Shown piece by piece: positions 14,283 to 41,354 of a DNA stretch of 64,000 bases. Under the pieces are notes generated by a model. It did no database searches, had not been told where the DNA came from, and was given only the letters and a program-made list of their open reading frames with translations. The number at the start of each line of letters is the position of its first letter. Position 1 is the stretch's first letter. A program made the position numbers and the translations under genes. The DNA is from Desulfosporosinus acidiphilus SJ4. Its GTDB lineage: Bacteria; Bacillota; Desulfitobacteriia; Desulfitobacteriales; Desulfitobacteriaceae. The stretch covers positions 2,699,977 to 2,763,976 of the forward strand of contig NC_018068.1 of assembly GCF_000255115.2 (NCBI RefSeq), in the 5' to 3' direction.

Positions 14283-16712
14283 TTAGACTATAATTGAAGG
14301 CCAGCCGATGTTTTTGAGCTTTTCCGCGAGTTTAAGATTAGTGGTGGAAAGGATTATTTGTCTCGCAGGAGATAGTTGTGATAAATACTCTGTAATATTT
14401 GTCAGGAAACTTTCGTCCTCAGATAGTTTTTCAATTGAGAGATAAAGAGGTAACTCGATGTTATTGCCCAGAGCTAATTCTGCAATAGCCATGCGATAAG
14501 CAAAATATTCTCTTTTCGTCTTAAGAAGTTCCTTTTGAGACATTTCTATGTCTGACAAGGAAGAGAATTGTTTTAGAATTCTTGTTGCTTCAAAATAGAG
14601 GGCATTTCCGTAAGTTGCTTGCCAAGAGTCTGTTGACATCTCAAAAAGTCTTAGAGTGTCATTAATGGCCATAAGTAAGTTCTCATAGGTCATCCATTCC
14701 TTCCTAGACGCTTCCATTTTTTCTTCTAAGACGGGTAGCGACAGATATTTTTTCATCGATTTGAGACGCTTTTCTGTATCCTGACGAAGTCGACTAATTT
14801 CTAAGCGCTCTATCTCCCATGAAGCAATTGCAGACTGACGATCAGTACTGGAAATAAGAGCTTCCTTGTCCAACTCAGCTAAAGGTTCAATTTTTTTAGC
14901 CAAAGTGTCTAAGTCACGATCACCGATCATCTCCATAAATTTCGATCTGCATTCGGCCATTCTTTTTTCCGCCCTATCTTTTTCCCTTAATTGATGGGCA
15001 ACATTAAAGACCATGGCCAAGACTTCTTCTCGATCTGTAACTGGTGTGTTCCAGTCATTGAGCTTTTCCTTTAATTCTGCTGTAAAGTCGCGCAGGATAG
15101 TATCTTCTGCATCATAACGATCAGATAATGACTGTAGTTTTTTTTGCAGATGGGATAATTGAAATATTTTTCTGTTACAATCCTTCCAACCTTCTAACCA
15201 TAATGAAAAATTGTCAACATTAGCAGCGAAAAAAGCTTCATTTAATGAGTCATTTCGTGAATCAACCGTCTCACGGAGAATTTCTTCCTGGTCGATAACA
15301 TTTTTCAATTGAATAATCTTTTCTTGTAGTCTTTCCGCGTAATTTTTTAGCTCATGGAATTTGGTAAGCCGATTTTGAAAGCCTTCATAGTCTTTGACGC
15401 GGAGGGTTTCGTAGTATTGCTTAATACGAGTTCGGAGCTTTTTTTCGATACTGAATCTACTAAAATGTTCTTGTGAAATGCGCTCAAAGGTTCCGCCGAT
15501 TATCGAATTATGCCACTTCCTTAATTGCCATTCCCATCGAGCAACCCTTGCTGCATCTTTCTGTGTAACAGAGGTCATTTCACTTAATTCCTGGAGCTCA
15601 GCAGCGGCCTGGGATAAGCTTAGATGAGTGTCCGCCAGATCTTTTTTAAAATTAGCTAGACTATTAAGTTTATCTTGTGCTGTATTTTTTTCTTCTAAAA
15701 GTCTGTACATGCGTTGCTTTTCGTTATTAGATCCCTCATACCCGCTGGTTTGAATTGAAACCTTTAGATTTGCAATTCTGTCCCCTAACGTTTGAATAAT
15801 ATGATCAATGCGTTTAATTTGTTCTTGTAGATCAGCCCATCTTATACATTCTTCACGCAGGCTTTCGACTAAAGTCCAATCAATTACTGACTCATTAGTT
15901 AAGGCTGCTAGATTAGCTTCAGCTCTTCGTAGGCGCTCCTCCGAACTGATGATATCCGTCTGAAGTCGTCGTAGCTCACGATAATCTTGATTTTGATTTA
16001 GCAAGGTTAAACGTTCTTTGATTTTATGAGCTGCTGTAATTTTTTCAGCTATAATTGCATCATTTTCTTCAAATTCTTTAAGTTCTATTAAAAGAAGTCG
16101 TTCTTCTTCTTGCTGCCGGTGAGAATTTTCCCAATCCTTTCGTAACTCATCATACTCAGCTTTAACCAGAGCTATTTTCCCCTTTTGTTCAAGGACCTTA
16201 TTCTGGGCTCCGATTAACGAAGCTTTTACTTTTTGTGGGGATAGCTTTTCATCTCCACTCTGACAAATGTTTTCTATTCTTTGGTAAAGTTGATTGACAT
16301 CACTAATTTCCGACCAGTCAATAGTTACCCCCTGTTGAACTACTTGGAGATTGACTCCGAATATGTATTCTCCTAAGGACATTGAATCTGCAAGAGAAAC
16401 ATTCTCCCCGGTTATCTCGTCCTTGATAAAATCGGAAGTTGGCAAAAGATCATTGTCACAGAGCTGGTACTCCTGACGAATATGGAAGCGGTGGTTTTCT
16501 CTGCTCACCCACATTTCGAACACGCTGGAACTACCCAATGGATGGACAGTGTCCAGCGTTTTTTGTTTGCAAAATAATTCCCATAACAACTCAGCTAAAA
16601 CTTTTTGCTGACTTTCTTCTTTAAAAAGAAGAAAGACTGGACCTGCCGGGAATGTCCACTTAATATTCCCAAGTCCCTTCAAATGAAGACCATTAATTCG
16701 TTCAATTTTCAT
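14283..16712 (-). CDS. SbcC/YhaN-like coiled-coil protein with degenerate ATPase motifs
   Basis: 809 residues with the layout of an SbcC/YhaN-type Rad50 relative: a globular N-terminus (about 1-160), very long coiled coils (about 165-690) and a globular C-terminus. The ATPase motifs are not intact. Where Walker A should be, after FPAGPVFLLF, it reads KEESQQKV instead of GxxGxGKS. The signature region lacks the SGGT motif (MSQKELLKTKREYFAYRMAI). The Walker B position reads LPLYLSIEKLSED, not LPLILDDPFxxxDD. No CxxC zinc hook is seen. The frame is open and overlaps the upstream partner by 11 bases. It may act structurally, as a DNA clamp or scaffold; this is inference. Confidence 0.8.
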   Translation of the reverse strand: MKIERINGLHLKGLGNIKWTFPAGPVFLLFKEESQQKVLAELLWELFCKQKTLDTVHPLGSSSVFEMWVSRENHRFHIRQEYQLCDNDLLPTSDFIKDEITGENVSLADSMSLGEYIFGVNLQVVQQGVTIDWSEISDVNQLYQRIENICQSGDEKLSPQKVKASLIGAQNKVLEQKGKIALVKAEYDELRKDWENSHRQQEEERLLLIELKEFEENDAIIAEKITAAHKIKERLTLLNQNQDYRELRRLQTDIISSEERLRRAEANLAALTNESVIDWTLVESLREECIRWADLQEQIKRIDHIIQTLGDRIANLKVSIQTSGYEGSNNEKQRMYRLLEEKNTAQDKLNSLANFKKDLADTHLSLSQAAAELQELSEMTSVTQKDAARVARWEWQLRKWHNSIIGGTFERISQEHFSRFSIEKKLRTRIKQYYETLRVKDYEGFQNRLTKFHELKNYAERLQEKIIQLKNVIDQEEILRETVDSRNDSLNEAFFAANVDNFSLWLEGWKDCNRKIFQLSHLQKKLQSLSDRYDAEDTILRDFTAELKEKLNDWNTPVTDREEVLAMVFNVAHQLREKDRAEKRMAECRSKFMEMIGDRDLDTLAKKIEPLAELDKEALISSTDRQSAIASWEIERLEISRLRQDTEKRLKSMKKYLSLPVLEEKMEASRKEWMTYENLLMAINDTLRLFEMSTDSWQATYGNALYFEATRILKQFSSLSDIEMSQKELLKTKREYFAYRMAIAELALGNNIELPLYLSIEKLSEDESFLTNITEYLSQLSPARQIILSTTNLKLAEKLKNIGWPSIIV

Positions 16713-17853
16713 CGTCTATCCGCCCCTGCTCCAGTGCTGCCAGACCGATTTTTTTCACCAGTTCCCATTGTTTCTGATCCTCTGAGCTCGTCGCTGCTAA
16801 TTGATAGTCACTAATTTTCTGGAGATAGACTTGCGATAATGTCATAAAATCGCATTCTTCATGTATCGCCCGAACCGGCCTACTATGATCCAGTTCTAAT
16901 GGAGAATGTGTTTCCTCTTGAGGATCAATCACTTGGATATAACGGAATTTCTCCGAGAGAATTTTTTGCAAGGAATTAAAGTCTAAGTCTTCCTCGGGCA
17001 AGGACTTAGAAAAGGTGACTCTATACAAATTCCGTTGACGTTCTTCGGAACTCGTTTCCGCCAACAGTTTTGTCTCAAGAGATTGAATGTCGGATGGAAG
17101 GTCAAAACTCTTTGAAATATATTGTCGCTGCCCCAGTTCTCGGAATTCAAGACGAATCGAGCCTTCTTCTATCTCGCCGATGATCACGCCGTGAGGACCG
17201 CTTGAGGTAAAACTTCTGGTTTCTATAACGCCGCTGTCTGCCCAGAAAGTTCTTCCGGTCTTCTGAATTCCGCTATAGTTCTCCTGATGGCCTAAGGCTA
17301 AATATGTTAACTCACTGGCTCCTATTTGTTCAAGCGTGAGAAAATTACTTTTTTCATCATTGCCCACTTCGGAATGAAGAAGCATAATTGAGGTTGTATC
17401 AACATCGGCTCGAAAGCCTTTGCTAAGGAAAGACTTGTTTTGTTGAAACGCGGTCCATCCTGAACCGTATACTGTCACCTTGTTTTGAAGATTTATATTG
17501 TTTATTCCGCTGGAAAATATATGGACATTGTTCGGCCATACAGTAAGCCGGTAAGGTGAGGAAATCACAAGAGGATCTTTTTCACCAGGTACAATAAAAA
17601 CACGGGTTTTAGTTAATGATCCTAAGGAATTCGCTACCCTCTCAACAGTTGGTTTACGAGTATATTCTTGCTCAAATAAATTGCCCATTAGAAAAAGCAG
17701 ATCAATATTTTCCGACTGACATAAAGAAAGTACTGCTTCAAATGTCTTCCACAAGTCTTGATTGCGATAGGGAATCCATGTATCTGGCCCATCCCAAAAC
17801 GGACTGTCAAAACGACAGCCGGAACATTGTAAAAAACGGACTTTCGAAGCCAT
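16702..17853 (-). CDS. SbcD/YhaO-like phosphoesterase-fold protein with lost metal ligands
   Basis: 383 residues that follow the SbcD/YhaO fold: the segments align in order with FLHxADLHLDSPF, LLAGDLFD, GNHD, the LLH strand and the ALGHxH loop. Here they read FLQCSGCRFDSPF, FLMGNLFEQE, VPGEKDPL, IMLLHSEVG and LALGHQENY. Of the usual metal ligands only the LLH histidine and the first His of the GH motif survive; DxH is GxR, GD is GN and GNHD is GEKD. Nuclease activity is therefore unlikely. GAGGTGAAGGT precedes the ATG. It is the first gene of a two-gene unit with the equally degenerate SbcC-like protein. Confidence 0.82.
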   Translation of the reverse strand: MASKVRFLQCSGCRFDSPFWDGPDTWIPYRNQDLWKTFEAVLSLCQSENIDLLFLMGNLFEQEYTRKPTVERVANSLGSLTKTRVFIVPGEKDPLVISSPYRLTVWPNNVHIFSSGINNINLQNKVTVYGSGWTAFQQNKSFLSKGFRADVDTTSIMLLHSEVGNDEKSNFLTLEQIGASELTYLALGHQENYSGIQKTGRTFWADSGVIETRSFTSSGPHGVIIGEIEEGSIRLEFRELGQRQYISKSFDLPSDIQSLETKLLAETSSEERQRNLYRVTFSKSLPEEDLDFNSLQKILSEKFRYIQVIDPQEETHSPLELDHSRPVRAIHEECDFMTLSQVYLQKISDYQLAATSSEDQKQWELVKKIGLAALEQGRIDDEN

Positions 17854-18211: not shown

Positions 18212-19183
18212 ATGGAAGATCGATTCGACTCCTCTCCCCTCCCCTATTTTGCAAGGAATTATATTAATCACCTAGCGGTGACCAATAAATCAAAATCAAC
18301 GCAAATGGCTTACGCTCTGGAACTTCGTTTATTTTTTAATTATTTATGTCATTCCCTACCTGAGCTTCCAAACGCTTCAGCCGATATTTCTTTGGCTTCA
18401 ATGGAAAAGATTAGTCATCATCATGTAGAATCATACCTTAGTTGGGCTAGTGCCCAGCGAAATAATGGTGCACGTGCTCTGGCACGTAAACAGGCGGTCA
18501 TAAAGTCCTTCTTTCATTACCTGGTTCGGGAAGACTTGCTTGTCAAAGATGTGACTGTAAAATTGGACCCCATCAAAATTCATCAGAAGCTCCCTAAAGC
18601 ATTAGAACCAAACCAGATTGCCGATTTAACAGATGTCATGGAAACCGGAATGGGATTATCCCCTGGTCAACTTAAATATTATGCTTATACAGAAAAAAGG
18701 GATTACGCACTAATACTTACTCTTCTTGGTACCGGGCTGCGTTTATCTGAGCTTTGCAATCTGAATCTCAGTACCACTAATTTCAATAAAGGGTGCTTCG
18801 AAGTGCGGCGCAAAGGCAATAAGGAAACGGTGGTTTACTTCAATCGTGAAATTGCTAATGCTTTGATGGACTATATTTCGCACGAACGTCCCCGTTATAG
18901 CGCAAAAAAATCAGATGCATTATTTCTTTCTATGCAAGGAAAACGTGTTAGTAAGAGAGCAGTGCAAAATTTAATATCAAAGTATATGAATATCTTAAAA
19001 AATCTTGGTCACAATACGGAGGGTTTCAGCGCCCATAAGATGCGTTCAACATTTGCAACATTGCTTCTCAGGGAGACTGACAATCTTGCTATTGTTCAGG
19101 ATGCTTTAGGTCACTCAGACCCCCGAACGACAAGAATTTATGCTAAAGTTCTTGATAAACACTCAAACAAGCAGCGGATCTAA
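18212..19183 (+). CDS. Tyrosine recombinase (XerC/XerD-like)
   Basis: 323 residues. The N-terminal SAM-like DNA-binding domain (about 10-125) has the NHLAVTNKSKSTQMAYALELRLFFNYL-type core. The catalytic domain has all expected residues: Arg in LLGTGLRLSEL, a Lys in RRKGNKE, HxxR in SAHKMRST, His in LGHSDPRTT and the nucleophile Tyr in RIYAKV. Length and order match XerC/D, including strand breakage and rejoining at dif-like sites. GGAGG lies seven bases before the ATG. MsrAB follows 44 bases downstream. It could be the housekeeping chromosome-dimer recombinase or a lone Xer-type integrase; no attachment site is seen nearby. Confidence 0.92.
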   Translation: MEDRFDSSPLPYFARNYINHLAVTNKSKSTQMAYALELRLFFNYLCHSLPELPNASADISLASMEKISHHHVESYLSWASAQRNNGARALARKQAVIKSFFHYLVREDLLVKDVTVKLDPIKIHQKLPKALEPNQIADLTDVMETGMGLSPGQLKYYAYTEKRDYALILTLLGTGLRLSELCNLNLSTTNFNKGCFEVRRKGNKETVVYFNREIANALMDYISHERPRYSAKKSDALFLSMQGKRVSKRAVQNLISKYMNILKNLGHNTEGFSAHKMRSTFATLLLRETDNLAIVQDALGHSDPRTTRIYAKVLDKHSNKQRI

Positions 19184-30494: not shown

Positions 30495-33400
30495 TTAGAA
30501 GAAGTTTAACATTTCCACGATTTGTTCGTTTGTACATCCTCTAAGATTGATGGCACCGCAGCGGCAACTGGAAGCACATGCTCCACAACCTTTACACAGT
30601 GCATCGTTCACGACGGCTACCCGGTTTTCTAAATCCACGGCAACAGCCTTAGCCGAACATATAGCTTCGCAGGTTCCGCAGGCCGTACACTTGCGTTTGT
30701 TAACAAAGGCAGTTAAACCGGCGGATTCAACTTGTTCCTTAGATAAAGCCACGCCGGCACGACCGGCCGCTGCTTTAGCCTGGGCGATAACCTCTTCCAT
30801 ATTTTTAGGGCTATGAGCAATACCTGCCATATAGACACCGTCAGTACTGAAATCAACAGGTCTTAATTTCATATGAGCTTCTAAGAAGAATCCTTCATTA
30901 TTAAGGGGTACTTTGAACCACTTGGAGAGTTTTTTGCCGTCTTCCGGTGCTTTAATAGCAGCCGCAAGGCAGATGACGTCAGCTTCAATTTCAATAGGAC
31001 GATCTAAGACGTGATCCCTGACAGTGACCACAAGAGTTTCTCCTTCTTTAGTAACTACAGGTTTTTCATTTTCACTGTAGCGAACGAAAAGAATTCCGCT
31101 TCTGCGAGCCAGCTCATAGTCCTCTTCGAAATAGCTGTAAGTTCTCATATCGCGATACAGAACAAAGACATTAGCTTTAGGATTCTTAGCTTTAACTTTT
31201 AAGGCCAGTTTAACGGATTTAGTACAACACGTGCGGCTGCAATAAGGGTTTTCTTCGCAACGGGAACCGACACATTGAATGAATACAAAATTTTGAGCTT
31301 TAGACACTAGGTCATCGTGCCGTACTAAGGCTTCATCCATTTGGATCTGAGTCATGACACGGGGATCTTGACCGTAGAAATATTCTTTAGGCTGATATTC
31401 TTGGCCGCCGATAGCAATGACGGCAACCCCATGGCGGATTTGTTCTCCATCCTTCAGGGTCGTTGTAAAGTTTCCTAAGAAACCACCAACCTCTTGAATT
31501 TCCTTACCTAGATGCAGGGTGATTTTGGGATGACTGCTGACGCGGTCGATTAATCCTGCCAGGAAAGCCTTGATATCTTCTCCTCGGAAACCGGTGGAGA
31601 AGCGTTTGGCAATACCTCCAAGTTCCGGAGCTTTTTCAACTAAATGAACAACATATCCTTGATCGGCTAAGGATAAAGCACTAGTCATACCGGCAACTCC
31701 GCCGCCAACTACTAAAGCGTCATGGTTCATCTCCATAAATACCGGCTGAACAGGTTGCTGCATTGTGGCTCGAACAATAGCCAGGCGGGTTAGGTCTTTA
31801 GCCTTTTCAGTGGCTTTTTCCGGCTCGTTCATGTGTACCCAGGAACATTGGTCGCGGATATTGGCCATATCAAATAAATGAGCATTCAAACCGGCTTCTT
31901 TTAGTGTTTCTTGGAAGAGTGGTTCGTGAGTTCGGGGGCTGCAGGAAGAAACTACAACTCTGTTAAGTTTATATTCTTCGATCATTTCCTTCATAGAAGC
32001 TTGAGCATCCTGGGAACAAGCATAGATTTTTTCTGTGGCTACGACAACGGTAGGCAGAGTTTTAGCATATTCCACGACTTCCGGTACATTAACGACACTG
32101 CCAATGTTAACGCCGCAATGACAGATGAAAACTCCTGTACGAATAACATCTCCGGCGACTTCTTTTTCCGGCGGATATTCTTTCTCGCTGACCAGAGTTC
32201 CCCGCTCTTGGGATAATAAAGCGGAAGCTGCACCGGCGGCGGCACTGGCCTGCATGACTGTTTCCGGGATATCACGAGGGCCGCTGAAAGCACCCGCGGC
32301 AAAAATACCTTCTCGGGAAGTGTTAACACCGCTGAGAGGTTCCAACTCGGCAAAGCCAAATTTATTGACTTTTAAATCTAAGGTCTCGGCTAAAGCTTTG
32401 GAACTTTCCCCAGGCTCTAAGCCAACGGAAAGAACGACAAGATCGAATTGCTCGGTGGAGATTTGGCCATCCTCATTGGAATAGCGAATGACGGAATCTC
32501 CTGAGCCGTCTTCAGCCTCTGTAACCTCATAGATACGAGAACGGATAAAGCGGACTCCTTGATTATCCTTAGCATTGTTGTAATATTTCTCAAAATCTTT
32601 GCCCGGAGTTCTCATATCCATAAAGAAAATCGTAGTATCCACGGGAATATGACTATGCTCTTTGGCAATGACTGCTTCTTTAATAGCGTACATACAGCAA
32701 ACGCCGGAGCAATAATTTTTGTTGATTTTTGCATTTCTGGAGCCAACGCACTGAATCCAAGCAATTCTTTGCGGCTCTTTCTTATCGAAGGGACGAACTA
32801 AATGACCATCGAAGGGGCCGGAAGCACTTAAGAGACGCTCGAATTCCAAGCTGGTAACAACGCTTTTGATTTTGCCATACCCATAATACTCCAAGGCAGA
32901 CGCATCAAATACTTTGAAACCAGGGTTCAAGATCATCGAACCAACTTCAATTTCGATATCTTCGCCTTCCATATCATGATTAATAGCACCGGCTTGGCAG
33001 GCTTTCAGACACTTTTTGCAAATGTCCTTGCCTTTGGCCTTTCCGGTGGTTTGGAAGAGGCATTTTTTAGGATCAATTGCATAGGCGTTAGGAAACGCCT
33101 GTGAATACTGTTTAAAGATCGCTTTACGTTTACCGATTCCTTGATTGAACTCATCATCAACTTTAACCGGGCATACTTCTGCGCATGATCCACAGCCTGT
33201 GCATTTATCAACATCGACAAAGCGCGGCTGCTGTCGAATAGTAACTTTAAAATTCCCAGCTTCCCCTTCGGTTTTTATAACCTGGGAATTTGTATAAATG
33301 CGAATGTTAAGATGGCGTCCGCACTCTACCAGCTTTGGAGACAAAATACACATAGAGCAATCATTAGTAGGGAATGTCTTATCTAACATTGGCATGGTTC

Positions 33401-33527
33401 CGCCAATGGCTGACGATTCTTCTACCAAATGGACCAAGTACCCCGACTCTGCCAAATCAAGTGCAGATTGAATACCGGCAATTCCTGCGCCTACAATCAT
33501 TACAGCACCGATTTTATTTTGACTCAT
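30495..33527 (-). CDS. hdrA: HdrA-like flavoprotein with two FAD modules
   Basis: 1010 residues, longer than single-module HdrA. Two FAD/NAD-fold modules begin VMIVGAGIAGIQSAL (residue about 9) and DALVVGGGVAGMTSAL (about 608). An inserted ferredoxin region, CTGCGSCAEVCPV plus CKKCLKAC, follows the first. The HdrA-type cysteine region CHCGVNIG and VVSSCSPRTHEPLF lies between the modules. Two C-terminal clusters are CTACGTCEAICSAKA and CKGCGACASSCRCGA. HdrA holds the flavin where electron bifurcation occurs; with FlxABCD the input is NADH and the outputs are ferredoxin and a disulfide. AAAGAGGTG precedes the ATG. First gene of the operon. Confidence 0.95.
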   Translation of the reverse strand: MSQNKIGAVMIVGAGIAGIQSALDLAESGYLVHLVEESSAIGGTMPMLDKTFPTNDCSMCILSPKLVECGRHLNIRIYTNSQVIKTEGEAGNFKVTIRQQPRFVDVDKCTGCGSCAEVCPVKVDDEFNQGIGKRKAIFKQYSQAFPNAYAIDPKKCLFQTTGKAKGKDICKKCLKACQAGAINHDMEGEDIEIEVGSMILNPGFKVFDASALEYYGYGKIKSVVTSLEFERLLSASGPFDGHLVRPFDKKEPQRIAWIQCVGSRNAKINKNYCSGVCCMYAIKEAVIAKEHSHIPVDTTIFFMDMRTPGKDFEKYYNNAKDNQGVRFIRSRIYEVTEAEDGSGDSVIRYSNEDGQISTEQFDLVVLSVGLEPGESSKALAETLDLKVNKFGFAELEPLSGVNTSREGIFAAGAFSGPRDIPETVMQASAAAGAASALLSQERGTLVSEKEYPPEKEVAGDVIRTGVFICHCGVNIGSVVNVPEVVEYAKTLPTVVVATEKIYACSQDAQASMKEMIEEYKLNRVVVSSCSPRTHEPLFQETLKEAGLNAHLFDMANIRDQCSWVHMNEPEKATEKAKDLTRLAIVRATMQQPVQPVFMEMNHDALVVGGGVAGMTSALSLADQGYVVHLVEKAPELGGIAKRFSTGFRGEDIKAFLAGLIDRVSSHPKITLHLGKEIQEVGGFLGNFTTTLKDGEQIRHGVAVIAIGGQEYQPKEYFYGQDPRVMTQIQMDEALVRHDDLVSKAQNFVFIQCVGSRCEENPYCSRTCCTKSVKLALKVKAKNPKANVFVLYRDMRTYSYFEEDYELARRSGILFVRYSENEKPVVTKEGETLVVTVRDHVLDRPIEIEADVICLAAAIKAPEDGKKLSKWFKVPLNNEGFFLEAHMKLRPVDFSTDGVYMAGIAHSPKNMEEVIAQAKAAAGRAGVALSKEQVESAGLTAFVNKRKCTACGTCEAICSAKAVAVDLENRVAVVNDALCKGCGACASSCRCGAINLRGCTNEQIVEMLNFF

Positions 33528-33679: not shown

Positions 33680-36600
33680 TCATAGGAATAGTTGATTTTC
33701 CATCGTTTGCCGTATTTCCAGACAAAGTGAATTTGGAATGATAACTTCTCTCCCTAAGGAAAACGAATAGAGTGAACATTGAGTAACTCCAATGCCCATA
33801 AGCTTTTCAATGGCCAAAGCATAAAGGGTCAGTTGCAGGGCGTACCGATCGATGAGAAGTTGTTCAGGGGGCTTTTCGTTTCTTCCCACCAAAGCGTCTG
33901 TTTTGTAATCAAGAATTTCAGCAGAAAATTCTTGACCGTTCTTCCGGATCATAACTACATCTATGACACCTTGAACTAAGATATTCGTTTGAGCTTGTTT
34001 TTGGGGAGTAAACGTTAACGTGAAAGGCAGTTCTCTAAGAACCCGTTCCGAACAGAACAGCCGTAATCCGAGAGGCGTATTCAGCAGTTGAACAATTTTA
34101 GGCGGTTCGATACTGTTCTTTTGTTCATCGTTTAGAATATCTCTGTCTTGCAAAAGGTTTAGTAATTCAACAATTTTTATCGTCTGCTCGGCTGAGTTTA
34201 AAACTGCCCAATCGGTACTCCATTCTCTAAAGGGCAAATGCTGCATCACTGTATGCAAGGCAGTCCCACGTTCTGCTGCCGTCAAGGAATGTGACGTCTG
34301 GAGAAACTTCGGTCGCAGAATTTGATCCCCTCTCGTAGAGATACTCTCATGTTGAGAAGTTTCATCATCAACATACCAATTATACTGGCGCTTTAATTCT
34401 GAAACACTTGTTTTGGCAACCAGACTAACCGGGTGAGGATATTTCCAACGTAAACGGCGGTCGATTTCATAAAACCATTGTTCAGGGGTTAAATTTTCTG
34501 TGGATTCATCAACAACTTCTTCTTTAGCCAATTCTTTTGTTGGTTCTTTAACTTCCTCAATACCACGCTTTTCGCAGCCAGTTTCCTCCCCTTCCGTTTC
34601 AGAGACCGGTTTAGGACTGTCTTGATGATTCATCTCTTGTTCGGATTCCAAATTATGATGAAAGAAGATTTCCCACGCAGAATTGGACTCAGGAAGAGTT
34701 ATGATCGTATGGTCTTGCCCCTGGCCTAAGTCAACTAAAGGATGACGAGCCAATGCGGGGATAATCCAATCAAGAAAGGACTTGGCATTTCGGAGCAATT
34801 CCTCGGGCAGTGAAACATCTTGCCAGTCACAAATTCGCCGCCACTTGAGAAGAGCGCTGTCCAAGTTTTCCACATTGCCGTAGAGGAACAATCGTTCTTT
34901 GGCACGGGTCAGAGCAACATAAAGGATACGCAGCTCTTCGGCTAACGACTCTTGAGCCAGACGCTGCTGTACAGCATATTGGATTAACGACGGATAACGC
35001 ACATTGTTCTCAACATCAATGATAGGCATGCCCAAACCTAACTCGGAGTGAAGAAGCAGCTTTCCATTCAGGCTTCTTGAATTAAAGCTTCGCCCCAGAC
35101 CGACTACGAAGACAACAGGAAATTCCAGTCCTTTACTGGCATGGACTGTGATTAAGCGGACAACATTTTCATTTTCTCCCAGCGCACGGGCGCTGCCCAT
35201 ATCCTTCCCCTGGCCCTGAAATCGTTCTAAAAATCTAAGGAAGCGGAATAACCCCCGGTATCTTGTGGCTTCAAAACCTTTAGCCCTGTCATAAAGCACT
35301 CGAAGATTGGCCTGACGCTGAACCCCAGCAGGCAGCGTTCCCACATAAGTAAAATACCCGGTTTCTTCATAGAGGGCCCAGAGAAGTTCAGACAGTGACA
35401 AACGGCGTGACTGAGTCCGCCAGCTTTGCAGCTTTGTCCAGAAGTCAACAATTTTCTCACTTAAACCGGGAGCTGAAGCTAATAAGTCTTGGGCTTTTTT
35501 AATTCGAGACAATATATGATGGTTATAAAGATTTAGAACCTGTGAAAAAATCTCTTGGTTATCTTCGGAAAGATGATCCTCATCTAAACCGGCCCAAACA
35601 GAAAGTGTCAAGGCCTCGTAAAAATCTCCTTCCGGAAGTACCATGCGCAGTTTACCAAGTTCAAGTCCGTTAAGGCCCACCAGAGGAGAACGCAGAACTG
35701 CTGCCAGAGGAATATCCTGATGCGGATTATCAATGACTTTAAGAAGAGAAAGGATTATTTCTACTTCACTTGCCCCGAAGTAACCCGTTGATGTTTCTGC
35801 ATACACGGGAATGTTTGCTTTCTGAAATTCCTCTACGTAGACTGGAGCCACTGCTGAATAGGAGCGCATTAAGACTACGATGTCGGAATATTGTACCGGA
35901 CGGAAATTTCCCAATTTCTTATCATAGATATGAAACTCGGAGCCTTCTACAAGGGTTTGAATCCGTTCGCTGACAAAGCGTGCTTCAATTCTAGCTTTGT
36001 CGAATTCTTCCTGAGAAGATTCTTGATTGGAGAATTCTTGATTCGAGACTTCGTCAGAACTTTGACTTATTCCCTGAGACACGTTTTCTTTATTCCAAGA
36101 GGCTTTCACACTCTTTAGATTTATAAGATGGACTTCTATTGGGCCCTCAGCTGTAGAAATTGAATCTTGTCCTTTGACAAAAGAAGCTCCATACTGCAAA
36201 GCTGCTTGATCATCATAGGATATTTCTCCGGAACCTTGAGTCATGATCTGGCGGAACAGAAAATTAACACCGTCTACAATTTCTTGGCGGCTGCGAAAAT
36301 TTCGGTTCAAATCGATAACCATTTTGACAGGCACAGACGCATCAACCTGAGATTCTGGATTCCAATGAGGCAAGTTTTGATACTTATTCAGAAACAGACC
36401 GGGATCTGCCATGCGAAAACGATAGATGCTCTGTTTAACGTCCCCAACCATAAAAAGGTTCGGGGACACTTCCTGACGAGACACCAACTGCAAAATCCGT
36501 TCTTGTACTGGATTGATATCTTGGTATTCATCAACGAGAACTTCTGTAAAAAAGTCTTTAATTCCTTGAGCTGCTAAAGTAGGTTTGTCCTCTTCTTCGA

Positions 36601-37732
36601 GTAGGCGCAGGGCAAAATGTTCAAGATCCGAAAAATCCAGAATGTTACGTTGTCTTTTAGCCCCAGCATAGTTCCGAGAGAAATCCAAGACCAATTGGCC
36701 CATCGATTGAGCTATTCTTGCCATAGGTTTAAAATCTTGCAATTGGCGCTCATGAGGATATGAGAAAAGTTCGTTTTTAAGGGCATTCATTTTTTTCTTG
36801 GCCTCATCACGAAGCTTTTTGCATTCTTCTTGTAATTCTTTATCCCCTTTGGAGCGAGCAGATGACAGTTTGGGAAACATAGCGGTTTCTTGAACTTGAG
36901 ATTCTATCCTAGTCCAGGAACTTGAGTTCATTAGCTGTTTCAAGAGGCCAACACGATTAAGGTCATCTTGCAAGGTTTCTGCATATTGAACAGGTCCCTC
37001 CGGCTTTTGGGTAATTTGTTCAGCATTTTTCAGAAGACTATAGACTTCCTCAATGGAATCCAGGAGTCCCTGTCGAATGGATTGTCCCCACTCACTCTGC
37101 ATCATGGTTTCCAAATCATCCCAGAGATAGGCTTGGTCAAGGGTCTTTAGCCATTCCAAGGGGTTTGTTTGACTTTGGGCAAAATCGAAAATACGGAGTG
37201 TGTGTTCCATTACTGCCAGATCATCCCGGTCTGAGCCGAAGGCATCAATGAGCGCTATAAAGTCCGGGTCTTCACAATCATAACGTTCTTCAAAGAGAGC
37301 TTCCACCACATCCTGACGCAGGAGTGTGATCTCTGCTTCATCAGCGACTCGAAATGCCGGGTCCAGATCCAGCACGTAAAAATACTTTCTAATTAATTCT
37401 AAACAGAATGAGTGCAGGGTGGTTATATTGGCTCTCTGGAGTAAAGCTCGCTGCTGGAGGAGATGTTCAACTTGCTTAAAGTCTTGCTCTTGGAACAGGG
37501 CCTCATCAAGGGCTTTGCCAATCCTCTCTTTCATCTCATTTGCGGCAGCTTTGGTGAAGGTAACCACAAGAAACCCATCCACATTAACGTGATTATCTAT
37601 CTCTGTAATTTGTTTTATAATCCGTTCAACTAACACAGCGGTTTTTCCGGAACCGGCAGCGGCAGCCACTAAAAGTTGGCCGCGTAGATTAATTGCCGTA
37701 CGTTGTTCTGCTGTCCAAGATGGCTTACTCAT
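33680..37732 (-). CDS. addA: ATP-dependent helicase/nuclease AddA
   Basis: 1350 residues from the ATG at 37732, which overlaps the addB stop; AAGGAGAAG lies upstream. UvrD-type helicase motifs include Walker A LVAAAAGSGKTAVL, EVLVDEYQDINPVQE and LITVHASKGLEFPVVFVVG with ALTRAKERL. The RecB-type nuclease domain has AEILDYKTDAL near the C-terminus. With AddB it resects double-strand breaks for recombination. An acidic, Glu-rich insertion of about 50 residues (about 1065-1115), between helicase and nuclease parts, makes it longer than usual for the family. Confidence 0.97.
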   Translation of the reverse strand: MSKPSWTAEQRTAINLRGQLLVAAAAGSGKTAVLVERIIKQITEIDNHVNVDGFLVVTFTKAAANEMKERIGKALDEALFQEQDFKQVEHLLQQRALLQRANITTLHSFCLELIRKYFYVLDLDPAFRVADEAEITLLRQDVVEALFEERYDCEDPDFIALIDAFGSDRDDLAVMEHTLRIFDFAQSQTNPLEWLKTLDQAYLWDDLETMMQSEWGQSIRQGLLDSIEEVYSLLKNAEQITQKPEGPVQYAETLQDDLNRVGLLKQLMNSSSWTRIESQVQETAMFPKLSSARSKGDKELQEECKKLRDEAKKKMNALKNELFSYPHERQLQDFKPMARIAQSMGQLVLDFSRNYAGAKRQRNILDFSDLEHFALRLLEEEDKPTLAAQGIKDFFTEVLVDEYQDINPVQERILQLVSRQEVSPNLFMVGDVKQSIYRFRMADPGLFLNKYQNLPHWNPESQVDASVPVKMVIDLNRNFRSRQEIVDGVNFLFRQIMTQGSGEISYDDQAALQYGASFVKGQDSISTAEGPIEVHLINLKSVKASWNKENVSQGISQSSDEVSNQEFSNQESSQEEFDKARIEARFVSERIQTLVEGSEFHIYDKKLGNFRPVQYSDIVVLMRSYSAVAPVYVEEFQKANIPVYAETSTGYFGASEVEIILSLLKVIDNPHQDIPLAAVLRSPLVGLNGLELGKLRMVLPEGDFYEALTLSVWAGLDEDHLSEDNQEIFSQVLNLYNHHILSRIKKAQDLLASAPGLSEKIVDFWTKLQSWRTQSRRLSLSELLWALYEETGYFTYVGTLPAGVQRQANLRVLYDRAKGFEATRYRGLFRFLRFLERFQGQGKDMGSARALGENENVVRLITVHASKGLEFPVVFVVGLGRSFNSRSLNGKLLLHSELGLGMPIIDVENNVRYPSLIQYAVQQRLAQESLAEELRILYVALTRAKERLFLYGNVENLDSALLKWRRICDWQDVSLPEELLRNAKSFLDWIIPALARHPLVDLGQGQDHTIITLPESNSAWEIFFHHNLESEQEMNHQDSPKPVSETEGEETGCEKRGIEEVKEPTKELAKEEVVDESTENLTPEQWFYEIDRRLRWKYPHPVSLVAKTSVSELKRQYNWYVDDETSQHESISTRGDQILRPKFLQTSHSLTAAERGTALHTVMQHLPFREWSTDWAVLNSAEQTIKIVELLNLLQDRDILNDEQKNSIEPPKIVQLLNTPLGLRLFCSERVLRELPFTLTFTPQKQAQTNILVQGVIDVVMIRKNGQEFSAEILDYKTDALVGRNEKPPEQLLIDRYALQLTLYALAIEKLMGIGVTQCSLYSFSLGREVIIPNSLCLEIRQTMENQLFL

Positions 37733-40700
37733 CAAAGTCTTCTCCTTCCAGCCAATTTAAAACTCCTTTTGCCGGTCTGTCTGCAACCGAGGCAGGAGAA
37801 CTAATGCTTTCTAAACGGTCCCAAAGTTCTTCTTGGTTTAATGGCCGCAAATCTCGATATTGATTTTCCGGAAGATAGGGGTCAAAGTGACATACTGGGC
37901 GATAGGAGCAATACTGGCAGCCTGTACTCTTACCCCGTCGGTAGGGATATAAGGAAATTTCCCCTCCAAGAATATCCTCACCTGTCTGACGGAGAGTATG
38001 AAAAAGATAGTTCTGCAGCATTGAAAACTGTTCTTCTGTCAGAACATTGGCGCCTTTTCTGAACGAACCATCTTTATTTAATTTCAAGCCTAGTATATCG
38101 GATTGTCCGGCAGCAAAGGAAGCGTCCATTGCTTCTAAAACATGGGGGTCCGCTAATAAATAGCCGCTGATTTTAATTGCTTTAAGACGCCGTTCTTCCG
38201 CTTCTTCCGCACTAAGAGGGGCTTTTTCATCAAGCTGAGGTTCAAGGACAGGAAAATAAAGAAAACCGGCAGGCAAGGTTGGCGGTAAAGTCTTGGGACT
38301 TTCTTGATCTTTAAGAGCTGAAAGGTCAACGGTATTCAACAAGACCTCCGCACCTTGGAGGGCAACACTTAAATAAGTAAGTAATTGAAGATTAAGACCG
38401 TAGTAAATTGTATCCAGAGCTAACGTTTGTTCTCTGGATTTATAATCAAGGATTCGCAAATATACTTGCCCGTTTAAAAAGGCAGCGTCGACACGATCAA
38501 TTTGTCCGGATAAAACTAATGAATCTCCTCCTGATAGAGGAACCTCAACCCCGGGAAGTGTCCCATTCGGACCGAATTTAACTTCCAACTGGATTGGGAG
38601 GAATACTCCTCGCCGGGCATGTTCCGCCAGTACACGCACTGCATGATGGACAGTGCGCTTAAGTTTATGGGTGATGTAGCGATAGCGGGCATTGCTTAGA
38701 AGAATTTCATGCTGCAGCTTAGGCGCTAACTGATCCGCTAATTCACTAATAAGGCCCCAAGACTCTTCTTTCGTTAATTTGCCCCAATCTAAGTTTCTCT
38801 CTTGCAGCTGAAGAGCGAAATCATGTAAAAGAGTGTGAAAGAATTCTCCCATATTTGGACGGGTAAGCTGATATGTGGGACGTTCATGGAGCTTCAGACC
38901 GTAATGGGCAAAATGTCCGAAAGGGCACTTGGAGAATTGTTCTAAACGGGAGACACTTGCCTTTAATTGCTTACCATAGAGACGGCGAGCTATTGGACGC
39001 GGAATCCGTTGTTCTTGATTTTTCGCAGTGAGGCTCGACTGAATATAGGTCAGTTTCCGCCGATGTTGAGGATCTTGGCTCAACCATAATTCGGCTGCTT
39101 TCCAAATGGGCGATGTATGCTCACTCCGTTCTGGATTGCGCAGCTGACCTGCATAGTATTGAAGAGCGGAATCCGCATGAGAGATAAGTTCTAAAGCCTC
39201 CTGATTGCCCAGAAAGTTCTCGGAAATTAAGAAAAGCTGTTTTAAACGCGGAATTACTGGGGATTCCGTAAGAGCCTTTCCCTCTTCATCTGTCAAAGGA
39301 TAGGAGATCACTAACTTCTCTCTTGCTCTGGTTAAAGCCATATAGATAAAAAATTGTTCCTCATACATCTGTGCTTTCCCTTTCGGAGCGAGAGAAACAC
39401 CTTCTTTCTCCAATTCCTCCCGTTCTTCAGCATCAAAAACGCCTTCAAAACCTGGTCTTGCCGGCAGAATTCCTTCATTAGCACCGAGAATAAATTGAAT
39501 ACGCACTTCAGGATTTCGTGAGCGATCTAAAGATCCCACGAGGACCTGATCAATTCCGGGTGGAATTTGCCCGATTTCCAGCGCCTCAATTCCGGAAGCA
39601 AGAATTAAATTATAATCCTCAAGTTCTAAAATTTCGTCACCTAAGCCGGTAACGATTTCATCGAATACCTGGATCACTGCGGCCCAAAGCTGATCGTGCA
39701 GTCTGGCTTCGCTCAGCTTCCCTTCAGTTTGAGAATGATCAGCCCAGCGTTTCAAGGTTGCGGGCACTTCGAGTTTCTCTAAAAAAGAAAACAGGGTTTC
39801 CGTAATCTCGCGAACCGTTATAGCTTCCTTATTATCCCTATTCGTCAGCGCTTCATAAAGAGGAAAAATATGTTGGTAAATAATTAACCTAGAGCTATTT
39901 AACTGAGCTTCGATTTTTAACTCACGATCACGCTGTTCCTCATTTTGACCAAGTGACCATTGTCGATGGTAGCGCCAGGGCGCCTTACTGCTCCAGCTTC
40001 CGCCATTGATGCCATGTTCAAGACTATAGTTTTCCAAACGATCAATATCATCCCTTTGCAACGGGAAAAAATCGGTCTTTAAGCAGCGAAAAAGAGGTTC
40101 ATAAGCCCAATTACCTGAAACTACTTCCAGAATTGAGAGCACCAATTCTATGAAAGGATGGTGAAGTATGGTGTGTTTATGATCAATATAAAAAGGAATT
40201 TCGTAGGAAGTAAACACTTGAGATATTAAATCCTGATACCCCGAAAGATCACGTGTCATGACAGACATGTCCTTCCAACATAATCCTTCATCCCGGGCAT
40301 AGTTACGTAATTCTCGGGCAATTCCCTCGATTTCCGCCCGCCGGTTGACGGCGGATATTATCTCAATTCCAGGACCTGGTATAAGGGTAGACTCATTAAA
40401 CGTGGGAGACTCTGTAGGTAGATTCGAAGTATAAGTTTCAGAAAAAGGGGTTGTTGGATAAGAAAAATAATACTTTTCTAAATGGTAAAGCCAAGGATGC
40501 TGAAAGCGTTTTGTGGCCGCCAGAATTGACGGAGGTTGAACTTGAACTCCCGTTTCAATAGCCAATCGCTGCAGAGCTTGATAGGTTTGCCATGGACCTG
40601 TAAAAAACTCTTCCCCTATTTTTAAAGTTCCTTCGGTATCTCGCACTTCACTCAAAAGGTCAGGGTCAAGAGGAATTGTTACCACAACATTGGCGGCAGT

Positions 40701-41354
40701 TGTTATAAGTTGTTTTAAAACCTCCAGTTCCTGAGGCGTAAAACCAATGAAACCATCAATCCAAACTTTAGCTGCCTGAATAAGCGGGGCTTGCGGTATC
40801 TTTGCTGCCAAAAGGGAAAGCTCATCGTCGGGATCCCTTACGGCTTGTCCGAGGGATACTTGAAATTCCTCATAAATCAGGGCTAAGTCAAAAAGTTTAT
40901 TCTCCAATAGTTCATGGGGGTTTTTAACGTCACGTAAGTCATGAGGAGCGATGCGATAGGTTTTAAATTCCCCAATAGTTTTGGCAAGAAGATCGGCCAT
41001 TCCGGGGCGAGTTGCCGAACGGGCAAAGGCCTTCAGCTCCAGACGATGTTTGAGGAGAATCCGCCGCAGAAGCATTCGTTTGCCCGTAGCTCCGATCATT
41101 ATCTTATTTCCGCCCCCGGTTTCGGCAAAAACCCGCCAGCCCATCCTGCGGAAGCTCAAAACTTGTGCTCGCAAACTTCCTGCCAATTCAGGCGAATTGG
41201 CCAGAGCCACTTCCATCTGATAGCTTGCCTGTTCGGGAACAAGAAAGATTATGGGGTCCCCCCACGACTGCTCCCGAAGTTCACTGCGTATTTCCTCCAG
41301 ACAGAGTGAGCTTTTACCGCTGCCTGCCCGGCCAATAATCAATCGGAGACTCAA
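37725..41354 (-). CDS. addB: ATP-dependent helicase/nuclease AddB
   Basis: 1209 residues starting at a TTG (MSLRLIIG) with AAAGGAG ten bases upstream; no better ATG fits the N-terminal Walker motif GRAGSGKSSLCLEEI. Helicase-like motifs are degenerate in the middle, as in AddB generally. The nuclease motif LRILDYKSREQTL and the cysteines of the Fe-S staple (FSKCPFGHF and GCQYCSYRPVC) are present. AddB recognises Chi and is the second nuclease of the AddAB complex. It overlaps addA by eight bases. Confidence 0.96.
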   Translation of the reverse strand: MSLRLIIGRAGSGKSSLCLEEIRSELREQSWGDPIIFLVPEQASYQMEVALANSPELAGSLRAQVLSFRRMGWRVFAETGGGNKIMIGATGKRMLLRRILLKHRLELKAFARSATRPGMADLLAKTIGEFKTYRIAPHDLRDVKNPHELLENKLFDLALIYEEFQVSLGQAVRDPDDELSLLAAKIPQAPLIQAAKVWIDGFIGFTPQELEVLKQLITTAANVVVTIPLDPDLLSEVRDTEGTLKIGEEFFTGPWQTYQALQRLAIETGVQVQPPSILAATKRFQHPWLYHLEKYYFSYPTTPFSETYTSNLPTESPTFNESTLIPGPGIEIISAVNRRAEIEGIARELRNYARDEGLCWKDMSVMTRDLSGYQDLISQVFTSYEIPFYIDHKHTILHHPFIELVLSILEVVSGNWAYEPLFRCLKTDFFPLQRDDIDRLENYSLEHGINGGSWSSKAPWRYHRQWSLGQNEEQRDRELKIEAQLNSSRLIIYQHIFPLYEALTNRDNKEAITVREITETLFSFLEKLEVPATLKRWADHSQTEGKLSEARLHDQLWAAVIQVFDEIVTGLGDEILELEDYNLILASGIEALEIGQIPPGIDQVLVGSLDRSRNPEVRIQFILGANEGILPARPGFEGVFDAEEREELEKEGVSLAPKGKAQMYEEQFFIYMALTRAREKLVISYPLTDEEGKALTESPVIPRLKQLFLISENFLGNQEALELISHADSALQYYAGQLRNPERSEHTSPIWKAAELWLSQDPQHRRKLTYIQSSLTAKNQEQRIPRPIARRLYGKQLKASVSRLEQFSKCPFGHFAHYGLKLHERPTYQLTRPNMGEFFHTLLHDFALQLQERNLDWGKLTKEESWGLISELADQLAPKLQHEILLSNARYRYITHKLKRTVHHAVRVLAEHARRGVFLPIQLEVKFGPNGTLPGVEVPLSGGDSLVLSGQIDRVDAAFLNGQVYLRILDYKSREQTLALDTIYYGLNLQLLTYLSVALQGAEVLLNTVDLSALKDQESPKTLPPTLPAGFLYFPVLEPQLDEKAPLSAEEAEERRLKAIKISGYLLADPHVLEAMDASFAAGQSDILGLKLNKDGSFRKGANVLTEEQFSMLQNYLFHTLRQTGEDILGGEISLYPYRRGKSTGCQYCSYRPVCHFDPYLPENQYRDLRPLNQEELWDRLESISSPASVADRPAKGVLNWLEGEDFDE

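Follow-up and report, generated by a model that had tools for sequence, protein, structure and literature searches.

The gene pair and its catalytic motifs

The 64,000-nucleotide stretch of Desulfosporosinus acidiphilus SJ4 analysed here, referred to below as the window (NC_018068.1, positions 2,699,977 to 2,763,976), carries on its reverse strand two overlapping genes related to yhaO and yhaN of Bacillota, the products of which have lost most of the residues that make such proteins a nuclease and an ATPase. The features are as follows, in window coordinates:

16702..17853, reverse strand: pseudo-nuclease gene, YhaO/SbcD/Mre11-like, 383 amino acids, first of the pair, two-metal site largely lost
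14283..16712, reverse strand: pseudo-ATPase gene, YhaN/SbcC/Rad50-like, 809 amino acids, without Walker A, signature and Walker B; N-lobe at residues ~1-130, coiled coil at ~130-690, C-lobe at ~690-809
16702..16712, reverse strand: 11-nucleotide overlap of the nuclease-like stop with the ATPase-like ATG
16602..16625, reverse strand: lost Walker A site, codons 30-37 of the ATPase-like gene, counted from the ATG
16248..16271, reverse strand: NICQSGDE, residues 148-155 counted from the ATG, at the coiled-coil root of the ATPase-like protein

Both genes start with ATG, and the nuclease-like gene precedes the ATPase-like one. An earlier reading of the DNA letters alone (hereafter the sequence-only reading) had described the two frames as intact and overlapping, with the motifs of both catalytic centres replaced, and this proved correct: in the nuclease-like protein DxH is changed to G12-C-R14, GD to GN, GNHD to GEKD and GHxH to GHQE, while in the ATPase-like protein FKEESQQKV stands at the Walker A position, where intact relatives have GKNEAGKST or GPNESGKST, and the signature and Walker B are replaced. 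The claim that the nuclease centre was lost holds for most ligands, but the erasure is incomplete in the window protein, where GNHD keeps its Asp, GHxH its first His and motif IV its His (LLH). Its GN is a variable extra loss, since GD persists in 24 of 37 related copies. Family length, also claimed earlier, is kept: the nuclease-like protein has 383 amino acids against 375 in an intact relative (L047), and the 809 residues of the ATPase-like protein lie within the 808-1036 of intact YhaN-type proteins elsewhere, being fewer than the 921-927 of the four pairs aligned first.

Those four comparison pairs come from other families (L047-L050; all motifs are present in L047, L049 and L050, and the nuclease of L048 is degenerate), and we take them to be YhaO/YhaN pairs in view of their PF13514 and Metallophos matches. 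Homology is beyond chance because alignment with hhalign gave E-values of 2.1e-63 over 369 columns for the nuclease and 5.5e-26 over 764 columns for the ATPase. Near full-length homology to YhaO (SbcF)-type nucleases and YhaN (SbcE)-type ATPases was thus found for both proteins. The two-metal motifs DxH, GD, GNHD, H and GHxH as a set and the set of Walker A, ATP-binding cassette (ABC) signature and Walker B were sought and are absent, and we therefore place the pair outside the enzyme families YhaO/YhaN. The sequence-only reading had named SbcD/YhaO and SbcC/YhaN together; the YhaO/YhaN half of that assignment stood and the SbcDC half did not. Membership of SbcDC was rejected on tree placement and because the window protein does not reach the cut-off of TIGR00619 (sbcd), which a separate gene at C3:213198 does reach.

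Family models recognise the window proteins poorly. The nuclease-like protein stayed under the cut-offs of the Metallophos and mre11 models that it matched, and a sub-threshold Pfam match to PF04042, of interest for the B subunits of eukaryotic DNA polymerases, lay far below its own cut-off; a profile of 20 nuclease relatives did match solved Mre11 structures (best E 6.3e-6). For the ATPase-like protein there was no Pfam or NCBIfam match of note, and PF13514 (AAA_27), which three comparison YhaN-type proteins match, did not match it.

Motif loss across the relatives

The nuclease-like protein was found in 49 of the 100 genomes searched, the own genome included, and in 43 of the 73 genomes of the order, two of which (G047 and G049) hold an intact YhaO-type protein. 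The other 41 were placed in the dead group by score, and motifs were read in 37 copies. Within Desulfosporosinus a copy is present in 26 of 29 genomes including the own one (25 of 28 others); the genomes with no nuclease match are G012 (67% complete), G022 (85%) and G024 (98%). The ATPase-like protein was found in 39 of the 100 genomes and in 24 of the 28 other genomes of the genus. Altogether 31 loci were named, from Desulfosporosinus, Gracilibacter, Ca. Dichloromethanomonas, unplaced Peptococcaceae and one unplaced metagenome-assembled genome of Bacillota.

The nuclease motif count takes in incomplete rows as well (three copies at contig edges and a pair of short fusions truncated at 290 amino acids) and omits gaps, hence the denominators of 36. 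The Asp of DxH and both the Asn and the His of GNHD are lost in 37/37 copies, the His of DxH in 36 of the 37 scored and the last His of GHxH in 36/36 scored. Retention is partial for the Asp of GD (24/37), the motif-IV His (30/36) and the first His of GHxH (26/36), so that many copies keep part of one metal site, with no fixed form. The dead nucleases have at the same time a conserved pattern of their own: 77 positions are at least 95% conserved, 23 of which are common to at most one of nine intact proteins. The near-invariant positions include G12 in place of the DxH Asp, C10, W20, W26, W35, C45, W133, W204 and D206, the last being Asp in 32/32 pseudo-nuclease copies and Tyr in 9/9 intact proteins. 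A remodelled binding face could take such a Trp-rich form.

The same residues could be read as a rebuilt enzyme, in which GD (in most copies), the LLH and GH histidines and the new D206 form a partial metal site for one-metal or different chemistry. The retention frequencies given above and the switch from Tyr to Asp at residue 206 speak for it. None of the three retained ligands is invariant, however, the window copy is without GD, and DxH Asp, GNHD Asn and GNHD His have gone from every copy; we regard this explanation as distinctly unlikely.

On the ATPase side the comparison covered 30 rows, six of them fusions entered from residue 371 on; short fusions, L092 (cut by its contig) and the G046 copy with its split frame were excluded. 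Walker A and signature patterns occur in 0/30 pseudo-ATPase halves versus 10/10 intact relatives, and no P-loop sequence, which would have spoken for a surviving nucleotide site, remains in these halves. The Walker B Asp is gone in 23/23 aligned unfused rows, while the YFA/SYR segment after it is retained; a string resembling Walker B at residue 216 of L080 falls within the coiled coil and was not counted. None of 24 pseudo-ATPase rows matched a Pfam AAA family (E 0.01). At the root of the coiled coil, a loose NxxQxGDE motif occurs in 30/30 rows, fusions included, and in 2/10 intact YhaN-type proteins.

A structure model of the window ATPase-like protein, built with 24 sequences, reached a mean predicted local distance difference test score (pLDDT) of 83.5 and a predicted template modelling score of 0.43. 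It shows a Rad50-like head with a coiled coil. The nearest structures were the Rad50 heads 3auy (Z 18.3, root-mean-square deviation (rmsd) 4.9 Å over 317 residues) and 4nch (Z 18.1, rmsd 3.5 Å over 249), and cohesin and Smc5/6 heads scored almost equally to Rad50 heads. A Rad50-like head fold is thus predicted to remain without the nucleotide motifs.

In phylogenetic trees, which omit partial copies, the dead nucleases form one clade of 32 full copies with support of 100/100; in a second nuclease tree, from which duplicates and L143 were also omitted, support was 100/99. We therefore conclude on one origin of the loss in these data. The clade adjoins intact YhaO/YhaN-type pairs. Since the same losses occur across the genus, in all 37 nuclease copies and all 30 ATPase halves, decay specific to strain SJ4 was rejected.

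A wider search of the phylum covered 398 genomes, 105 with matches, and the best-scoring 24 loci outside the dead group were examined. All eight scored nuclease positions are present in 15 of them, one is incomplete at its start and eight are degenerate. A P-loop lies on the same strand in 21 of the 24 stretches, including seven of the eight with a degenerate nuclease; none was seen in the stretch examined of L143, L149 and L154, L149 being near a contig end. Seven of the degenerate loci form a separate clade (100/99), so that nuclease loss arose at least twice. This second clade (L144, L145 and L147-L151) belongs to other Bacillota families and shows graded loss of nuclease residues in YhaO-type proteins; except at L149, each of these has a P-loop next to it on the same strand. 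In this sample, only the Desulfosporosinus group was seen to have lost both centres. Beyond these loci, a distant YhaO-type gene, annotated as a DNA repair exonuclease and with no annotated YhaN neighbour, lies on a plasmid of Vescimonas fastidiosa (L159:4010-5089).

Pairing, genome setting and selection

The two genes stand together in 28/28 evaluable named loci (20 adjacent, 6 fused and 2 short fused), three of the 31 loci (L087, L089 and L093) being cut at contig ends. The 11-nucleotide overlap recurs in 19/19 unfused named loci measured, with starts set at the ATG aligned to that of the window. In five fusions of 1061-1079 amino acids the ATPase half begins at about residue 120-130, and they therefore are without the N-terminal ATP-binding lobe. 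A separate fusion has arisen inside Desulfosporosinus, in D. metallidurans OL (L071:6001-9489; 1165 amino acids as listed), with the ATPase match starting from residue 32-39. N-lobes are also shortened in the unfused L107-L109 and L044, and L090 (563 amino acids) and L091 (571 amino acids) consist of pseudo-nuclease and coiled coil only, with no ATPase head. In G070, of the same genus as the latter two, a copy spread over two contigs reaches ATPase residue ~744 and keeps the nuclease C-terminus; the short form is therefore not fixed in that genus. The unfused L044 and L107-L109 nest among fused rows in the ATPase tree (96/96) and in the nuclease trees (93/95 in one, weakly in the other), and the fusions may have arisen once or several times. 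A model of the natural fusion L094 was poor in the nuclease domain (pLDDT below 50 at residues 130-142 and 144-250), and no interface was taken from it. At the level of sequence, the pairing, the overlap and the fusions support a partnership of the two proteins.

The genome of SJ4 also encodes an intact SbcD (432 amino acids) and SbcC (1204 amino acids) at C3:213198-218107, and strong SbcD matches occur in 24 of the 28 other genomes of the genus. An intact YhaN seems absent from the own genome, because PF13514 had no match there when the 27 best first-look candidates per genome were scored; the same held for 27 of the 28 other genomes of the genus, and G017 gave a weak match (E 1.2e-6, a 675-amino-acid frame). 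The dead pair appears to take the place of YhaN. A third SbcD-like match, at C3:787060, was rejected as a YhaO candidate, as on inspection its sequence reads like a membrane phosphoesterase.

An intact SbcCD in the same cell, and AddAB within the same window, raise the explanation that the pair is a regulator or decoy of SbcCD (or of AddAB), occupying DNA ends or partner proteins and so restraining cutting. Two observations oppose it: descent from the YhaO/YhaN branch and not from SbcDC makes an exchange of subunits less likely, and G004 and G020, both draft assemblies, have the pair but no strong SbcD match. We consider this role unlikely.

Selection was estimated as the ratio of nonsynonymous to synonymous substitution rates (dN/dS). 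NG86 values spanned 0.14-0.28 in eight nuclease pairs and 0.14-0.27 in eight ATPase pairs, and YN00, solvable in seven pairs, gave 0.16-0.33 and 0.27-0.49. Three fusion pairs ranged over 0.15-0.20 (NG86), and the two short fusions L090 and L091 compared with each other gave 0.27 (NG86) and 0.40 (YN00). By part, each region was under constraint in four Desulfosporosinus pairs, with 0.13-0.24 for the N-lobe, 0.19-0.29 for the coil and 0.14-0.41 for the C-lobe. For five of these genome pairs, the intact SbcD gave 0.09-0.15 and the intact SbcC 0.13-0.20. A ratio near one would have spoken for decay; every pair lies well below it, under 0.5 by both methods.

These values bear on the notion that a redundant pair is slowly losing its function and has been retained by chance. 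Graded shortening of the N-lobe, a split ATPase frame in one genome, the short fusions and a constraint weaker than that on SbcCD would all suit such a process. The dN/dS below 0.5 in all pairs, the two short fusions among them, the overlap kept in every unfused locus measured and the 77 strongly conserved nuclease positions do not, and slow decay is in our view highly improbable. The sequence-only reading had suggested selection for a non-enzymatic complex and not decay, a view that clade-wide loss, dN/dS, pairing and fusions now support; the role of clamp, tether or regulator that it offered for the complex is still an inference.

No mobile-element or defence origin could be upheld: a scan of viral contigs returned no relative, three distant matches (25-27% identity) came from collections of phages and plasmids, and PADLOC had no match for the ATPase or for one fusion and one weak match for the nuclease (PDC-S10, E 0.006).

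As to the neighbourhood, a divergent tyrosine recombinase gene lies upstream of the pair (18212-19183); a gene for a Germane-domain protein has this upstream place in L035 and L036. AddA and AddB, another break-processing system, are encoded at 33680-41354, ~16 kb from the pair, both above NCBIfam cut-offs. A 1010-amino-acid HdrA2-like protein (30495-33527) has matches to flavin (FAD)/nicotinamide (NAD) adenine dinucleotide-binding and 4Fe-4S models and stays below the HdrA2 cut-off.

Interpretation of the pair

We propose, with a probability of about 0.6, that the pair is a catalytically dead descendant of YhaO/YhaN (SbcEF), kept in Desulfosporosinus and part of its order as a tether or scaffold that works independently of ATP and nuclease activity. 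A complex of the Mre11-Rad50 superfamily would here have dropped both its nuclease and its ATP motor and been kept as a passive coiled-coil tether with a new binding face, sister lineages having gone further by losing the ATP-binding lobe and by joining the two proteins in a single chain. The two proteins would remain partners in one complex, the pseudo-nuclease docking through its C-terminal helices at the root of the coiled coil in the manner of Mre11-Rad50. The remodelled part of the nuclease domain, with W20, W26, W35, W133, W204, D206, C10 and C45, might have DNA, a repair protein or some other molecule as its binding partner, and the coiled coil might bridge or space this nuclease-derived face.

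According to the excerpt of PMC3175470, the C-terminal helix-loop-helix (HLH) of Mre11 docks on the Rad50 coiled-coil root in T. maritima, and an order of Mre11 then Rad50 in fusions is argued to fit such docking. The order and the junction of the dead-clade fusions, by analogy, would fit it too. DNA repair would be the likeliest arena, by a link inherited from the family, because SbcE (YhaN) is cited both for double-strand-break repair and for a partnership with SsbA.

Several points weigh against the tether. In the excerpt of PMC12748557, SbcEF was dispensable in a nick-repair test in B. subtilis. The NxxQxGDE motif alone is no proof of a retained docking site, given its presence in only 2/10 intact relatives, and a long helical model tends to give high scores with many coiled-coil proteins, so that the Rad50 match rests mainly on the head. 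With the nuclease part of the fusion model poor, the predicted docking and the proposed binding face are unplaced. The pair is constrained, though less than SbcCD; the YN00 value for the ATPase reaches 0.49, and within the genus full-length pseudo-nucleases are 48-59% identical to that of the window versus 76-86% for SbcD. In G046 (L043:7650-9915) the pseudo-ATPase is split into adjacent frames of 413 and 340 amino acids, while three close relatives have one frame; this could be local decay. Lastly, SOS control found no support: the search upstream of the window pair gave no LexA-type box, although yhaONM is listed as LexA/SOS-regulated in B. pumilus in the excerpt of PMC3896406. Among the 31 named loci the exact GAACN4GTTC core occurs only in L073, L074 and L079, 217-218 bases upstream, and forms with one mismatch occur 200-215 bases upstream in L068, L077 and L080; these occurrences look like shared upstream sequence.

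The current view of Mre11-Rad50/SbcCD complexes is that of ATP-gated nucleases. A clade with both activities apparently gone and the pair still under selection is a natural separation-of-function experiment, which asks what is left for the phosphoesterase fold and the coiled coil to do once ATP and cutting are taken away. Which parts are dispensable can be seen from the series that runs from the full pair to a fused protein with no head, and the second clade, with nuclease residues lost and the P-loop kept, suggests that nuclease loss can come first. In the literature searched, coverage of which is incomplete, no description of a dead YhaO/YhaN pair was found.

Among known systems the closest is YhaO/YhaN (SbcF/SbcE, SbcEF) of Bacillota, alike in gene order, in adjacency and in the homology of both proteins over about their full length. 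The window-type pair differs from it by the absence of Walker A, signature, Walker B and most nuclease ligands, by the Trp-rich conserved positions of the dead clade and by fusion and N-lobe loss in sister lineages. SbcDC and Mre11-Rad50 share a phosphoesterase and an ABC-type head with a coiled coil, but the window pair has neither catalytic motif set, and SbcD and SbcC are separate intact genes in the genome. The B subunits of eukaryotic DNA polymerases are inactive phosphoesterases and likewise use the fold as a non-catalytic subunit, with a different partner and in a different lineage. Fusions of Mre11 and Rad50 have already been published (Yoshida et al. 2011, PMC3175470) and, in the excerpt of that paper, resemble ours in having the Mre11-like part N-terminal to the Rad50-like part; Walker A and B are present in the Mimivirus fusion that it describes, whereas the five fusions of the dead clade are without the N-terminal ATP-binding lobe.

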